Shown: piece after piece, positions 5,416 to 22,377 of the stretch
Layout: the number at the start of each line of letters is the position of its first letter
How positions within the stretch are numbered: position 1 is the stretch's first letter
Assembly (NCBI GenBank): GCA_016191015.1
Contig: JACPPM010000135.1
Span: 1-32,022 of the forward strand
Reading direction: 5' to 3'
DNA from: Acidobacteriota bacterium
GTDB lineage: Bacteria > Acidobacteriota > CAIWXX01
Length of the DNA: 32,022 bases
Notes under the pieces: model-generated
What the model was told of the DNA's origin: nothing
Database searches by the model: none
Seen by the model: the letters and a program-made list of their open reading frames with translations, nothing else
Position numbers and translations under genes: made by a program

Positions 5416-6425
5416 GCAGAGTCCTGACGGTTCTGGAGCGATTTCCGGGCACTCGCGTCGCCGTCGTGGCCGACCTGATCGCCGATGAGTTCCTCTACGG
5501 CCAGATCAGCCGTGTTTCGCGGGAAGCCCCTGTCCTCATCCTCCGGCACAGCGAGACGCGGATCGTCCCCGGGGGCGGCGGCAACGCGGTGTACAACCTG
5601 CGCGCGCTGGGTGCTGTTCCCGTGCCGTTCGGCTGCGTCGGGCGCGACGACGCCGGCAACGCTCTGATCGCCGCGTTCCGCGCTGCGGGCATCTCCACCA
5701 GACACATCGGGCGCATTCGCGGTGGAACGACGACCCGCAAGACCCGAATCCTCGCCAGCCTTCCCCTCTCGAACCGCCAACAGGTTCTCCGGATTGATCG
5801 CGAAGCCTCTGTGCCCCCGCGGGAGGCCGAGATCGACGCGTTCGCCCGCGACGTCGTGCCGACCTGTGCCGGCTTGTTGTTGTCCGACTATGGAGTCGGC
5901 TCGGTTCCGCCGACGATTGCAGCACATCCTGCTGTCCGCGCCTTCGTCCGTCGCCGTCCTGTCACGGTCGACTCTCGCTACGAGCTCCTTCGGTTCACCC
6001 GCCTCACGGCAGCCACGCCGAACGAAGGCGAGGTCGCCGCCGCGCTCGGTGGTCAGATCGGAGAGGACCCGGAGGCGCTCAACAGGGCGGGCCGGAGACT
6101 CCTGTCACGCTTGCAGTCGCAGGCCGTGGTCATCACGCGAGGGAACAAAGGTATGTCCGTGTTCGAACGCGGGAAGCGGCCGGCGCACCTCCCGATATAC
6201 GGAGGTGAGGAGATCGCTGATGTCACCGGCGCCGGCGACACGGTGATCGCGACTTTCACGCTCGCCCTCTGCTGCGGCGCGTCATTTGTCGAGGCCGCGC
6301 AGATCGCCAACTATGCCGGCGGCATCGTCGTCATGAAACGCGGAACGGCCACGGTGAGCCTGGATGAGCTGCGTGCCGCGGCGCGGGACAATCCGGGGCA
6401 GGGATCCGGGGACTGTGGACCGTAG
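5412..6425 (+). CDS. rfaE1: D-glycero-beta-D-manno-heptose 7-phosphate kinase (PfkB family)
   Basis: This 337-residue cytosolic kinase phosphorylates C1 of heptose 7-phosphate, making the substrate of GmhB. It belongs to the PfkB/ribokinase family: a GGGGNAVYN sugar-binding segment near 54-62, and the C-terminal signature DVTGAGDT with the catalytic base D276. It matches the kinase half of bifunctional HldE, whose adenylyltransferase half is here the separate next gene (a split arrangement, also called hldA). The ATG overlaps the gmhB stop by four bases, so translational coupling is likely. Confidence 0.92.
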
Positions 6426-6903
6426 GAAAGTTGTCGCGCTCAGGGCGCTGAGAAAGCGCGTTGCGATCGCTCGAAGAGCCGGCATGAAGGTCGCGTTGGC
6501 GAACGGCAGCTTCGATCTCCTGCATGTCGGGCACGTCCGCTACTTGCAGGCGGCGAAGCGGTTGAGCGATGTGCTGGTAGTCTGCGTCAACTCGGACCGC
6601 TCCGTGCGTGGCTACAAGGGACCGGGGCGCCCGGTTCAGCCCGAGCGGGAACGGGCCGAGCTGGTGGCGGCTTTGGCCTGCGTCGATTTCGTCACGATTT
6701 TCGATGACCCCGACGTCAATCGGCTGCTCGAGCTGCTCCGCCCCGACTTCCACTGCAAAGGTACCGACTACACGGCCGAAACGGTGCCTGAGAAGGATAT
6801 GGCCAGGAGGATCGGCACGAGGGTCCGCATCTGTGGTGATCCGAAGGACCACTCCACCCGAGATCTGATTGCCCGGATCGGCCGCCTCGCGCGCCGCTGC
6901 TGA
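6415..6903 (+). CDS. rfaE2: D-glycero-beta-D-manno-heptose 1-phosphate adenylyltransferase
   Basis: This product of about 162 residues transfers AMP from ATP to heptose 1-phosphate, giving ADP-heptose. The nucleotidyltransferase signature [12 protein letters not shown] (HVGH at 37-40) and the downstream K-G-T-D-Y segment match the C-terminal half of HldE. The GTG at 6415 is preferred: it overlaps the kinase gene by 11 bases and puts the conserved core at the usual distance. The upstream ATG at 6364 would overlap by 62 bases and add 17 unconserved residues. It is also known as hldC. Confidence 0.9.
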
Positions 6904-7871
6904 TGTCGCGGAAGATTCTGATCATTCGAAAATCGTCGCTGGGAGACCTTGTCCACACGATTCCCGCCTTCAATGCTCTGCGTGCGGCCCACGCGGATGC
7001 GGAGATCCATTGGGCTGTTACAAAGGCCGGGGTTCCCCTGCTTCAGCGCGTGAAGAGGATTGATGCGATCAGGGAGTTTTCCGGATCGTTTCTGAGAGGT
7101 CTGCGTTCCGAGCAGTTCGACGTGACGATCGACTTCCAGGGTCTCTTGAAGACGGCCGCGGCGTCATGGCTGGCCGGAGGGCGCCGCATCGGGTTCGCGC
7201 GCGGCCACACCCGCGAATGGGGCTGCCAGATCTTCTACACGGATGCCGTTGTCCCGCGCGGTGCTCATGTCATCGAGAAGAACCTGTCTCTTGCCGAGCA
7301 CGCCGGTGCGTCGCCCGCCACGGGAGCTTTTAGTTTCGGCGAGCTGGTGACGGATGAAGAGCGAGAGCGGATCGATCAGGAGCTGCTCCGACTCGACGTT
7401 GCACCGGGGTTCGTGTTGATAAACCCCGGGGCCGCGTGGGCGAACAAGAGGTGGAGTCCACGGAAGTTCGGCGAGGTCGCGAGCAGGCTTGCGGGCCGAC
7501 AGGTGCTCGTCTCGTACGGCCCGGGCGAACGGGGCATAGCGGAGGAGGTGGTGGCGTCGAGCGCTGGGGCGGCGATGCTGGCCTTCCCGACTAGCTTCCT
7601 CGAATTCGGAGCGCTGGCAGCGCGGAGCAGTCTGTTGATTACCGGAGACACAGGACCGATGCATCTGGCATCGGCCATCGGAGCGCGAGTGCTCGGCCTC
7701 TTCGCCCCCACCAACCCCTATCGCAACGGTCCATGGAACGATGCCGATCGCTGGATCGTCGCGGACACGCGCTGTGATTTCTGCTATCGCCGGGCATGCC
7801 CGTGGGAGAACTGCATCGACTCGATCACAATCGATCGTGTGGCTGATCTGGCCAGGGAGATGTTGGGGTGA
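6903..7871 (+). CDS. ADP-heptose:LPS heptosyltransferase-like glycosyltransferase (GT9)
   Basis: This 322-residue GT-B enzyme probably transfers heptose from ADP-heptose to a lipopolysaccharide core or similar glycan at the inner face of the membrane. The N-terminal ILIIRKSSLGDLVHTIP and the late donor-site segment GDTGPMHLASA are GT9 hallmarks. A cysteine-rich end, CDFCYRRACPWENC, is also common in the family. The ATG overlaps the preceding TGA (TGATG). Whether it is heptosyltransferase I, II or another cannot be read from the sequence. Confidence 0.9.
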   Translation: MSRKILIIRKSSLGDLVHTIPAFNALRAAHADAEIHWAVTKAGVPLLQRVKRIDAIREFSGSFLRGLRSEQFDVTIDFQGLLKTAAASWLAGGRRIGFARGHTREWGCQIFYTDAVVPRGAHVIEKNLSLAEHAGASPATGAFSFGELVTDEERERIDQELLRLDVAPGFVLINPGAAWANKRWSPRKFGEVASRLAGRQVLVSYGPGERGIAEEVVASSAGAAMLAFPTSFLEFGALAARSSLLITGDTGPMHLASAIGARVLGLFAPTNPYRNGPWNDADRWIVADTRCDFCYRRACPWENCIDSITIDRVADLAREMLG

Positions 7872-8419
7872 TGGGGTCGATCAAAGGGCGAATCGCGAGG
7901 GTGCGGGTACCCGCCGGGGGCATCGTCGCACTCGCCGTCGTCCTCTTCGCGCACCCGACGCGCCTGTCCATGCTGTCTGGGATCGCGGTGACGCTGGCCG
8001 GGGAGGCGGTTCGCATCTGGGCCTCTGGCTACATCCGGAAGAACACCCGTCTGGCCACGGACGGCCCCTATGGCTACACCCGCAATCCGCTCTACGTCGG
8101 CAATCTGCTCATCGGCCTCGGTGTCGTCATCGCAGCCGGGAATCCGTGGATGGCTCTCCTCTTCGCTCTCTATTATGCCGTTTGCTACGGCGCAACGATT
8201 CGATGCGAATCCGAGGTTCTGGCGCGCCTATTCGGAGACGAGTTCGAGAGGTACCGCACAGAAGTACCAGGGTTCTTTCCGCGGCTGAGGGCTACGGGAG
8301 AGAGTGGAGGCGGGTTCGATCGACGCCTCATCTGGCAAAACCGCGAGTACCGGGCGATCGCCGCGGTGGTCGCCGTTTATTGTCTCATCGCCCTCCGTTC
8401 TCTCCTGCGCTGGCCGTGA
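7871..8419 (+). CDS. ICMT/PEMT-like membrane methyltransferase
   Basis: This 182-residue membrane protein resembles isoprenylcysteine carboxyl methyltransferase and related small phospholipid or isoprenoid methyltransferases. The signature is clear: GPYGYTRNPLYVGN (residues about 65-80), then an acidic stretch and LFGDEFERYRTEVPGFFPRL. There are several hydrophobic segments, including one near the C-terminus. The ATG at 7871 overlaps the previous stop; a GTG at 7868 is also possible. Bacteria generally lack prenylated CAAX proteins, so the true acceptor is unknown; the operon suggests an envelope lipid or lipid-linked glycan. Confidence 0.83.
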   Translation: MGSIKGRIARVRVPAGGIVALAVVLFAHPTRLSMLSGIAVTLAGEAVRIWASGYIRKNTRLATDGPYGYTRNPLYVGNLLIGLGVVIAAGNPWMALLFALYYAVCYGATIRCESEVLARLFGDEFERYRTEVPGFFPRLRATGESGGGFDRRLIWQNREYRAIAAVVAVYCLIALRSLLRWP

Positions 8420-18853: not shown

Positions 18854-19321
18854 TCAAGTATTGAGATGTGCGCCGCGTCTGATCAGTGTAACGCCGCATG
18901 CGCAGGTGACGACCGTGCCCGTCATCAGCGTCGCGAGGATCGCCGATGCGACGGCCAGCACGGGAGAAGAGATCCACTGTTCGAGGATGGTGGCCCCCAG
19001 CCACACAGGAGCACCGAAGGAGGCCAAGAGGCTCAAGATCGCCACCGGCACCAGTCCGGGCAGGACCCATCGAGCCGACGGATCCGGCATCCGGGCGATC
19101 GCCCGCAACGTTCGCTGACGGACGGCGCGCGTATAGAGGGGGGCGACACGGAAAACCTCCGGCGCGACTCCGAGCCCCTCCCCGTAGCGTGCACACGCGG
19201 GACACGCGTCGAGGTGGTCTTGCAGTTTCGCCGGAACACCGCCGGCACTCTCTTCACATGCGCGCGCGAGCAACTCGCGGCGGACGCGTTCGCAATTCGA
19301 GCTCTCAGCGCTCATCAGCAT
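18854..19321 (-). CDS. Anti-sigma factor, zinc-binding (ZAS) type, membrane bound
   Basis: This 155-residue protein has the anti-sigma zinc motif HxxxCxxC (H36, C40, C43) in a cytosolic N-terminal helix region, with further cysteines at 10 and 22. Two hydrophobic segments (about 87-110 and 119-142) anchor it in the membrane. It should hold the ECF sigma factor inactive until a signal arrives. It overlaps the sigma gene by 17 bases, which supports coupled expression. Confidence 0.83.
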   Translation of the reverse strand: MLMSAESSNCERVRRELLARACEESAGGVPAKLQDHLDACPACARYGEGLGVAPEVFRVAPLYTRAVRQRTLRAIARMPDPSARWVLPGLVPVAILSLLASFGAPVWLGATILEQWISSPVLAVASAILATLMTGTVVTCACGVTLIRRGAHLNT

Positions 19322-19883
19322 GTCCTCCGATGTCCCGATACAGCAGCGCCACGCGATCGAGAGCGCGTTTCAACCGGCTCTTCACCGTCCCCATCGGCAG
19401 CCCCAGGCTCCTCGTGAGCTCCTCATAGGATTCGTCCCTGAAGAATCGGAACCAGAGGATCTCACGATGTTCGGGTTGGAGCCCTGCCAGGAGCCTGCCG
19501 GCGATGTCACGATTCAGGACTCGATCCACGAATTGCGGATCACGATCTGCGCAATCTGTCCTGTCCGGCTCCCGGTCGTCTCCGCCGAGGGAGAGCCATC
19601 GACCCTTCCGGCGCCTGGCCATGTCGTAGGCGCAATTGCGCGCGATCCGGAAAAGCCATGGGGCGAGCTCTCTCTCGACGTCGAACCTGCCTATGCCCTC
19701 CATCACGCGAACCCAGGTGTCCTGGAAGGCGTCTTCGGCCGTTTCTCTCGTCCCCGTAACTGCGCAAAGGTACCTCATGAGATTCTCTCCGTGTCGATCC
19801 ATCAGATGCACCAGCACATCCCTTTCACCGGCCTTGAGTCGCCTGACCAGCTCTTTCTCACCCCGATCCGGCTCAGGCTTCAT
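19305..19883 (-). CDS. ECF sigma-70 family RNA polymerase sigma factor
   Basis: The 192-residue product has region 2 (AEDAFQDTWVRVMEGIGRFD, then A-P-W-L-F-R-I-A-R-N) and region 4 (L-Q-P-E-H-R-E-I-L-W through LGLPMGTVKSRLKRALDRV), typical of ECF sigma factors. It directs RNA polymerase to an extracytoplasmic-stress or envelope regulon. It lies just upstream of its anti-sigma gene. A GGAAC-type promoter at 19918-19944 suggests autoregulation. Confidence 0.92.
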   Translation of the reverse strand: MKPEPDRGEKELVRRLKAGERDVLVHLMDRHGENLMRYLCAVTGTRETAEDAFQDTWVRVMEGIGRFDVERELAPWLFRIARNCAYDMARRRKGRWLSLGGDDREPDRTDCADRDPQFVDRVLNRDIAGRLLAGLQPEHREILWFRFFRDESYEELTRSLGLPMGTVKSRLKRALDRVALLYRDIGGHADER

Positions 19884-20010: not shown

Positions 20011-22377
20011 CTAGCCTCCACCGGCGCCGCTCACCATCGCGGGCCCCTGTCGCTCTCGCATGCGGACGAGCGAAGCCGGGATCGTATCGATGCCCACTCG
20101 ACCGTGACGGTCGACGCGGCCGAAGGCGAGCGTGCCGGTAGGGCATTCCTGGACGCACGCCGAACATCTCACGCACTCGGGATCCTGCATCGGCAGCCCC
20201 TTGTTGGCGAAGTTCATGATATCGATCCCCTGGTGGCAGACCGAGGTGCAGACGTTGCACGAGATGCACTTTGATTTCTCGGCAAGAATCCGGAACTGGC
20301 TGAATCGGGCGTAGAGGTGCATGAGCGCCGCGAGTGGACAAGCGAAGCGGCACCAGACCCGCCCGCTGAACCAGAAGTACATGCCGACCCCCACGATCCC
20401 GGCCAGAAAGATATCCACGATGTGGTAGTAGTTGAGCTGGACGCCGAGGAAGGACCAGTCAGAGAGCATTCCGCGAAAGACTCGCCGGGCCCACACACCC
20501 GCGGTGGAGTGAGGGCTCGCCCATCCGACGATGCGCAGACCGAAAACGATGAACGCTGCAGCCAGTATGACCTGCCCGGTCATGTTGAGCCGGTTCCAGA
20601 GCGGGCCGTGAGGCATTTTGGTCCGGTGTCTGTCGCCGAGAGTCTCTGCAAGCGCTCCGCACGAACAGATCCAGCCGCAGTATGCGCCCTTCCCCCAGCG
20701 CCACACGATCAGCGGGATGATGAAGAAGGTTTGCAGCGAGCCGATGATGAGCCACCACCACATCGGCTGCTCGGTGAAGAAATTCCAGACGAAGAGGGGC
20801 CAGGCGAGGACGAGCCCGAACGCCCGCCAGTATGCCCGGCCGTGCCCACCCTGCGCAGCGGGGAACAGGTTGTCGGCCACCGTCTTGCCGATTCCGTCGT
20901 CGAAGAAGCCGTTGTGACCCAGGTAGGGCAGGAGGACATAAGGCAACAGAAAGAGGGGGACGATCTGTACGGCCATCAGCGTCAGGGTCTGGAGCTTCAC
21001 GTAGGCAGTTTTTCGCCGTCGAATCCTCCCGATTCCAAACGCCACGACGCAGGAGCAGTAGGCGAGCGAATAGTAGAAAGATGGATCGCGAAAGGTGATC
21101 GTCATGGTTCCCGGCAACGAAGACGGGTCTCCGGACGCGCCGATGTTGAAGGGGAACCAATGGTGCCGCTGAAAGAGAGCGTTGAGCTCGCCGCTCGATT
21201 TCCAGTTGTAGAGAAATACGCAAAATGCGAAAAACAGAAGAAAGCTCGCCCACGTCCGCGCTCTCCATTCGCCGCGGATCGTGATGCCCGAGCGGCGGAA
21301 GAATTCGAGCGGTGCTTCGCGGCCGATCATGGCGAATACGACGTCGTTAGGTAGAACGATCTCAGTGCCGGCCTCGTTCTTCAGGGTCACCGAGTCCCGG
21401 CGAATCTCCCTCACCGTCGACCCCATCAGGAGCCGCAGGGATCCTGCGGGCTTGTCACCGCGCATCAGGGAACCGGCGGCCGTCGTCACGCGGTCGGACA
21501 CCGGTCTCTCGACCGCCACCTCTGCCTCAGGGTTCTTCTCGAGCGCACGGATCTGCTGGATGTTTTCGGGCTTGGGACGGGAGAGCTCCTTGTTGCGGTA
21601 GCTGAGGGTCACGTGAGCTCCGCACGAGGCGAGGGCGATTGCGGTTTCGAGCGCCGAGTCACCTCCTCCGACCACCAGCGCCTGCATTCCCGCAAAATCC
21701 TTGGGGTCGTACAGGCGATTGTAGACCTTGTCAAGCTGTTCGCCGGGGACGTTCATCTTGCGGTAGTTGCCGCTGCGCCCGATGGCGATGATCGCGCGAC
21801 GCGCGCGCACGGGCGGCCTTTCCTTGCCGACGTGCAGCAGAATCTCGTCACCCTTGCGTTCGAGACGCTCGATCCGCAGCGGGACAGCCTCGATCCCCGC
21901 CGCCGTTCGTTGCGCCTCCAGCTCGTCGAGCAATCCCTCCTTGACCTCCGCCGTCAGGCGCATCTGTCCGGCAGGCACCATCTCGGTCGGGTATGTGTAG
22001 ATGGGCTTGCCCTTCGGGAAATTTACAATTGTAGAAAAAACCTGAGTCGCCTCGAAGACTCTGAAGCTCAATCCAGATTTCCGTGCCTCCAACGCGGCGG
22101 AGACCCCGGACACCCCGGCGCCGATGATGGCCAGATCGAGGACATCGGGATTCCTCTGGCCGCCGCGGCTGAGCCCCGGTTCCCGCAGTATCGCCTGCAC
22201 GGCTCGCGCACCCGTGTCAGCGGAGAACTTCAGGAGCGGTATGCCCGTGAGATCTCCCACGATCCGCACACCAGGAAGTGAGGTCTCGCCCTCCGGGCCG
22301 GCGACGGGCAGCTTCTCGATCACGCCCGCCGGCCAGCGGGTATGAAGCCAATTCATGTATCTACTCACAATCCACAT
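20011..22377 (-). CDS. FAD/NAD(P) oxidoreductase fused to NapH/CcoG-like membrane ferredoxin
   Basis: In this 788-residue fusion, residues 76-370 are a thioredoxin-reductase-like flavoprotein with the FAD motif GAGVSG (86-91) and the NAD(P) motif GGGDSA (237-242). A GD motif usually found in the C-terminal part of such enzymes (V-R-I-V-G-D-L-T-G, 37-45) is at the N-terminus. Residues about 375-685 are membrane segments with Y-C-G-W-I-C-S-C-G (567-574) and C676-R-F-A-C-P, as in NapH/CcoG electron-transfer proteins. Two [4Fe-4S] motifs follow: C704, C707, C710, C714 and C735, C738, C741, C745. Electrons probably pass from NAD(P)H through FAD and Fe-S clusters to a membrane partner. No CxxC redox pair is seen in the flavoprotein. 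The ATG follows GGAGGAG. Confidence 0.85.
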   Translation of the reverse strand: MWIVSRYMNWLHTRWPAGVIEKLPVAGPEGETSLPGVRIVGDLTGIPLLKFSADTGARAVQAILREPGLSRGGQRNPDVLDLAIIGAGVSGVSAALEARKSGLSFRVFEATQVFSTIVNFPKGKPIYTYPTEMVPAGQMRLTAEVKEGLLDELEAQRTAAGIEAVPLRIERLERKGDEILLHVGKERPPVRARRAIIAIGRSGNYRKMNVPGEQLDKVYNRLYDPKDFAGMQALVVGGGDSALETAIALASCGAHVTLSYRNKELSRPKPENIQQIRALEKNPEAEVAVERPVSDRVTTAAGSLMRGDKPAGSLRLLMGSTVREIRRDSVTLKNEAGTEIVLPNDVVFAMIGREAPLEFFRRSGITIRGEWRARTWASFLLFFAFCVFLYNWKSSGELNALFQRHHWFPFNIGASGDPSSLPGTMTITFRDPSFYYSLAYCSCVVAFGIGRIRRRKTAYVKLQTLTLMAVQIVPLFLLPYVLLPYLGHNGFFDDGIGKTVADNLFPAAQGGHGRAYWRAFGLVLAWPLFVWNFFTEQPMWWWLIIGSLQTFFIIPLIVWRWGKGAYCGWICSCGALAETLGDRHRTKMPHGPLWNRLNMTGQVILAAAFIVFGLRIVGWASPHSTAGVWARRVFRGMLSDWSFLGVQLNYYHIVDIFLAGIVGVGMYFWFSGRVWCRFACPLAALMHLYARFSQFRILAEKSKCISCNVCTSVCHQGIDIMNFANKGLPMQDPECVRCSACVQECPTGTLAFGRVDRHGRVGIDTIPASLVRMRERQGPAMVSGAGGG

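Follow-up and report, generated by a model that had tools for sequence, protein, structure and literature searches.

The window (the whole stretch of 32,022 nucleotides of acidobacterial DNA analysed here) encodes a 788-residue membrane protein that, judged from its sequence, is a true circular permutation of a thioredoxin reductase (TrxR)-type flavin enzyme. In linear relatives the counterpart of its residues 18-72 lies at the C-terminus, immediately behind the position matched by residue 372, i.e., the end of the FAD domain has been moved to the front of the chain. As a mobile redox module, the permuted head stands ahead of a NapH-like membrane module here and, in other proteins, behind ferredoxin and octahaem-cytochrome modules. 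The fold and the membrane module are known; the chain order is new, and the partners are several.

Layout of the gene and the protein

The open reading frame and its features are the following, all on the minus strand.

20011..22377 (-): permuted flavoprotein/NapH-like membrane fusion, 788 aa
22384..22391 (-): ribosome-binding-site-like GGGAGGAG before the ATG at 22377 (from the sequence)
22324..22377 (-): residues 1-18, conserved N-terminal helix 'RY..WLHT.WPAG' (alignment, AlphaFold2 model)
22180..22308 (-): residues 24-66, GD-type FAD block, normally C-terminal; strand 37-39, helices 41-44 and 49-65
21262..22149 (-): residues 77-372, FAD (N-terminal part) and NAD(P) domains, YpdA/TrxR-like, lacking conserved Cys
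22105..22122 (-): residues 86-91, GAGVSG, FAD dinucleotide motif (GxGxxG)
21652..21669 (-): residues 237-242, GGGDSA, NAD(P) dinucleotide motif
20374..21261 (-): residues 373-668, NapH-like membrane module, six TM helices suggested
20659..20679 (-): residues 567-573, CGWICSC, first membrane cysteine motif, invariant cysteines
20335..20352 (-): residues 676-681, CRFACP, CX3CP motif, invariant cysteines
20143..20268 (-): residues 704-745, two [4Fe-4S] ferredoxin motifs

Matches in Pfam and NCBIfam cover residues 81-368 (Pyr_redox/YpdA-like) and 539-752 (NapH-like, ferredoxin-type), and none of the flavoprotein models in these two collections reaches residues 1-78. Since the domain models miss these first 78 residues (the Pfam match ends at position 282 of 305), annotation truncates or misnames the protein. 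Rfam gave no match, and no promoter-like site was found near the gene.

Evidence for the circular permutation

The protein has the GxGxxG motif for FAD, the GxGxxA/G motif for NAD(P) and the GD-type motif, each invariant or almost so, in permuted order: instead of lying C-terminal to the NAD(P) domain as usual, the GD block occupies residues 24-66 (with TSLPGVRIVGDLTGIPLLKFSADTGARAVQAI at residues 32-63). The initial annotation had put this motif at residues 37-60, before GAGVSG, and had let the flavoprotein end at about 370 with no second GD motif; both limits were right to within a few residues, the membrane half starting at about 373. Pyr_redox_3 (Pfam) covers positions 2-282 of 305 in the window protein and 1-305 in the linear relative L017, and the missing end is the GD segment found at the front. 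Taken alone, residues 18-72 match the C-terminal GD segments of the linear proteins L016 (307-349), L017 (291-331) and L018 (271-314) with 12.5-13.4 bits, against 6.7 for the best of 200 shuffles. In the same alignment residue 372 falls on residue 287 of L017 and residue 24 on its residue 291, so that the two cut ends meet. When the block was moved back behind residues 77-372, a new lipoamide-dehydrogenase profile match appeared that spans the restored junction, and the TrxR score rose from 56.6 to 64.0 bits.

From 20 permuted proteins a profile of the GD block was built; searched against 177,635 distinct PDB sequences, it gave 80 matches at E<=0.1. The 60 matches listed (of 80) were without exception pyridine-nucleotide flavoenzymes aligned at their C-terminal GD motif, among them dihydrolipoyl dehydrogenases, glutathione, trypanothione, thioredoxin and CoA-disulfide reductases and glutamate synthase small subunits. 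A motif search over 72 homologues detected no further GD motif beyond residue 330 (seven loose regular-expression matches lay in the NAD domain or in membrane segments), and hence none after residue 345, where it had been named beforehand as the finding that would speak for a normal domain order. The circular permutation is thus backed by sequence homology, an exact junction, conservation and the profile match regained in the restored order. The other way to read the block, as a chance GD-like segment ahead of a degenerate flavoprotein that has lost the end of its FAD domain, could appeal to its shortness and to the weakness of the individual PDB matches (best E 0.00035), but all those listed fall on the GD motif of flavoenzymes, the 200 shuffles all score lower, and the block is kept over the 72 homologues and in further architectures. 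We regard such a coincidence as very improbable and already contradicted by the sequences.

Conservation and predicted structure

As to whether the order is conserved, about 70 full-length homologues from many phyla (34-73% identical) share it. In the alignment of 72 sequences used for the conservation counts, G36, G41, G45, P47, L48 and K50 are invariant and D42 is present in 71. A scan of GTDB contigs yielded 80 loci, in Verrucomicrobiota, Planctomycetota, Myxococcota, Latescibacterota, Gemmatimonadota and others, and nearly all of these aligned with the window protein from end to end and in the same order. The closest relative within the phylum (L006, G025:C142:14559-16904) has one TAA inside the matched stretch, in a frame open almost throughout; this is possibly just the natural stop.

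AlphaFold2, run on the homologue alignment, gave a model with pLDDT 88 and pTM 0.82. The GD block is modelled at high pLDDT with the strand and helices listed above, followed by a strand at 79-85, i.e., the secondary-structure pattern expected of a GD segment. To this extent the model agrees with the proposal that residues 30-60 complete the FAD domain; for the packing itself, we infer from the homology that the segment, although read first, should fold back beside the GxGxxG strand.

Relatives and chemistry of the flavoprotein head

The nearest PDB folds of the model are those of the bacillithiol disulfide reductase Bdr/YpdA (PDB 7a76, 7a7b; TIGR04018), which is the closest kin of residues 77-372 in both sequence and fold. 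However, Bdr/YpdA has the linear order and the redox-active cysteine of GGGPCG, whereas the window protein is permuted, has GAGVSG with the cysteine replaced, and is fused to a membrane module; its score against TIGR04018 (116.8 bits) is below the curated cut-off of 339.9. The CxxC of the NADPH domain that characterizes TrxR (TIGR01292) is absent as well. There is no conserved cysteine in residues 1-375, the sole candidate, C252, being present in 37 of the 72 homologues. A function as a disulfide reductase, of either the thioredoxin or the bacillithiol type, was rejected for this reason, and the sequence makes disulfide chemistry in the flavoprotein half unlikely.

The NapH-like membrane module

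That the flavoprotein runs directly into a membrane part of the NapH/CcoG kind, as first proposed, agrees with the match to TIGR02163 (NapH/MauN; E 2e-15, residues 539-752), the NapH-like part starting at about 373. The window protein resembles NapH/MauN in its NapH-type core, in the pair of membrane cysteine motifs located where helices end and in the two [4Fe-4S] motifs of its C-terminal part. It differs in its suggested six TM helices, in its first motif, which is CxxxCxC and lacks the P (the second CX3CP and both ferredoxin motifs are present), and in its score of 56.9 bits, far under the curated cut-off of 213.05. It also has an N-terminal FAD/NAD(P) head where NapH/MauN and their wider kin NosR, CcoG and RdhC have FMN_bind or nothing; Pfam gave no FMN_bind match (a trait of NosR/RdhC) at E<=0.01. 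All 13 conserved cysteines of the protein sit in the membrane half (C567, C571, C573, C676, C680 and the eight ferredoxin cysteines), each present in 71-72 of the 72 homologues. The positions of the helices and the charges around them suggest that the head, both membrane cysteine motifs and the ferredoxin domain are all cytoplasmic.

Folded alone, the membrane half reached pLDDT 90, and Foldseek found no PDB match to it at E<=0.001; as no solved structure resembles it, a quinone site cannot be argued from structure. A published account of Wolinella NapH (PMC5928378) describes a membrane subunit that oxidises quinol, with cysteine motifs that play a part in binding its partner and in transferring electrons; by analogy, the module of the window protein may contact the quinone pool.

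The permuted unit in other architectures

Of 297 genomes from the window's phylum, about 49 gave a match over the whole permuted unit when searched with a profile spanning the junction; three further matches covered the GxGxxG side alone, which is what linear proteins should give. The unit was seen in three architectures. Type I consists of a TM anchor, two [4Fe-4S] motifs and the permuted flavoprotein. Type II is the permuted flavoprotein followed by the NapH-like membrane module (the window protein and the diverged L007, L008, L164 and L168). In type III eight CxxCH haem motifs, a TM segment and two [4Fe-4S] motifs precede the permuted flavoprotein (L158-L163, L165 and L166, some with a further TM segment and an N-terminal FHA domain); the relatives L167 and L170 lack most of the haem motifs. 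Type III single chains (for example L158:275-3598, L159:3070-6501 and L160:2351-5500) could possibly form a trans-membrane wire from NAD(P)H to haem. The window's own genome holds a second permuted flavoprotein, a type I copy of 431 aa (L002:354-1646, G000:C1), and one Phycisphaeraceae genome has two different type II fusions close together (L044:2920-5286 and 5992-8391).

The initial annotation had supposed that the FAD-domain end moved to the front so that a membrane domain could be attached. This is not supported: types I and III carry their partner at the N-terminus and leave the C-terminus free, so the permutation is not explained by the fusion to NapH. In a tree built on the shared core, with the GD block left out, all permuted units fell in one clade with 100/100 support together with two linear proteins, L017 and L018, which have the GD block at its usual C-terminal place, followed by a cNMP-binding domain and cysteine-rich ferredoxin-like sequence. 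A single clade of permuted units is neither rejected nor established by this tree (p-AU 0.29). The permuted unit is a widespread building block, apparently undescribed, that bacteria pair with several electron-carrying modules.

Genomic setting

The neighbours in the window are an OmpA-like gene and, at 18854-19883 (minus strand), an ECF sigma factor with a downstream, overlapping, anti-sigma-like gene that has a zinc-finger-like HxxxCxxC and whose product is probably the anti-sigma factor of that sigma factor. An operon function read from these neighbours was rejected, as they are not conserved around the homologues. The commonest neighbour around homologues is DUF547, at 17 loci, and arsenosugar genes (arsS TIGR04167, arsM, TIGR04282/04283, TIGR04169) are found near a subset of them. 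DUF547 lies close to the permuted fusion at L036, L042, L052, L058, L066, L089 and L091, and likewise at L093, L094, L096, L100, L101 and L105; several DUF547 loci also have arsenosugar genes alongside (arsS, arsM, TIGR04282/04283). Within the class of G098, arsS was present in 14 of 18 carriers vs. 29 of 132 non-carriers (Fisher p 5e-6, uncorrected for shared ancestry), and it was found in 32-33 of the 50 genomes holding the 80 loci of the GTDB scan, a count likewise uncorrected for shared ancestry. The genome of the window has arsS on another contig, beside an arsM-like gene.

A possible electron route and its alternatives

The best evidence for a path from NAD(P)H through FAD and Fe-S to the membrane comes from an unfused counterpart. 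In three genomes (G032, G058 and G025) a separate NapH-like gene overlaps the frame of a linear Pyr_redox_2 NAD(P)H flavoprotein (NirB/HcaD/PadH-like; L173:3244-6002, L176:1565-4802, L177:378-3063). These pairs combine an NAD(P)H flavoprotein with a NapH-like protein as the window protein does (35% identity in the membrane half), but as two genes and with a linear flavoprotein from another branch. In G032 a NuoE/F-like NADH subunit gene is located near the pair, and genes of the arsM, DUF547 and arsS types are found no more than 12 kb away. The proposed single-chain route from NAD(P)H to membrane Fe-S foreseen in the initial annotation is supported indirectly by these pairs, by the motifs and by the cysteine pattern.

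We consider it fairly probable that the protein is an inner-membrane NAD(P)H oxidoreductase with a permuted head and a NapH-type module, linked in several lineages to arsenosugar and DUF547 genes. The cytoplasmic head, a flavoprotein of the YpdA/TrxR branch with its FAD/NAD(P) unit in circularly permuted order, has no conserved redox cysteines; its flavin would most likely accept hydride from NAD(P)H and give off electrons one at a time to the pair of C-terminal [4Fe-4S] clusters and to the cysteine motifs in the NapH-type module. From this module the electrons would reach an acceptor that lies in the membrane or across it, the likeliest being the quinone pool or a maturation partner linked to quinone. 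The protein may, in several lineages, serve a pathway linked to the arsenosugar and DUF547 genes with which it is associated.

In a different reading, which we hold to be rather unlikely, the protein with its permuted head would not be a dehydrogenase linked to quinone; it would reduce metals or serve maturation at the membrane, either as a CcoG-like cupric reductase or as an electron donor to a DUF547/arsenosugar enzyme. Modules of the NapH/CcoG type include copper reductases, CcoG among them, and the neighbourhood of DUF547 and arsenosugar genes and the co-occurrence with arsS would fit a dedicated donor; however, arsS was not detected in about a third of carriers, the neighbours vary among lineages and no metal-site motif was identified. 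Electrons could also run the other way, with quinol or ferredoxin oxidised at the membrane module and NAD(P)+ reduced through the flavoprotein, as might be thought from the quinol-oxidising NapH of Wolinella (PMC5928378) and from the ferredoxin-NADP reductases that figure among TrxR-type flavoproteins (PMC9137726). Such a flow would be uphill from quinol, and no energy-coupling module was seen, which makes it quite improbable.

Significance

Few redox enzymes are commoner than the two-domain FAD/NAD(P) reductases. In open-access full text we found no report of a naturally permuted flavoprotein of the TrxR/YpdA type. We give an even chance to the broader reading in which the permuted FAD/NAD(P) unit is an undescribed superfamily, a plug-in NAD(P)H port wired to NapH-type modules, ferredoxin anchors or trans-membrane octahaem cytochromes, and the window protein stands for a single-chain membrane NAD(P)H dehydrogenase of a new class. 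Should the proposed route be correct, the protein would be a compact single-chain link from NAD(P)H to the membrane and a candidate for supplying electrons to arsenosugar-associated gene clusters.
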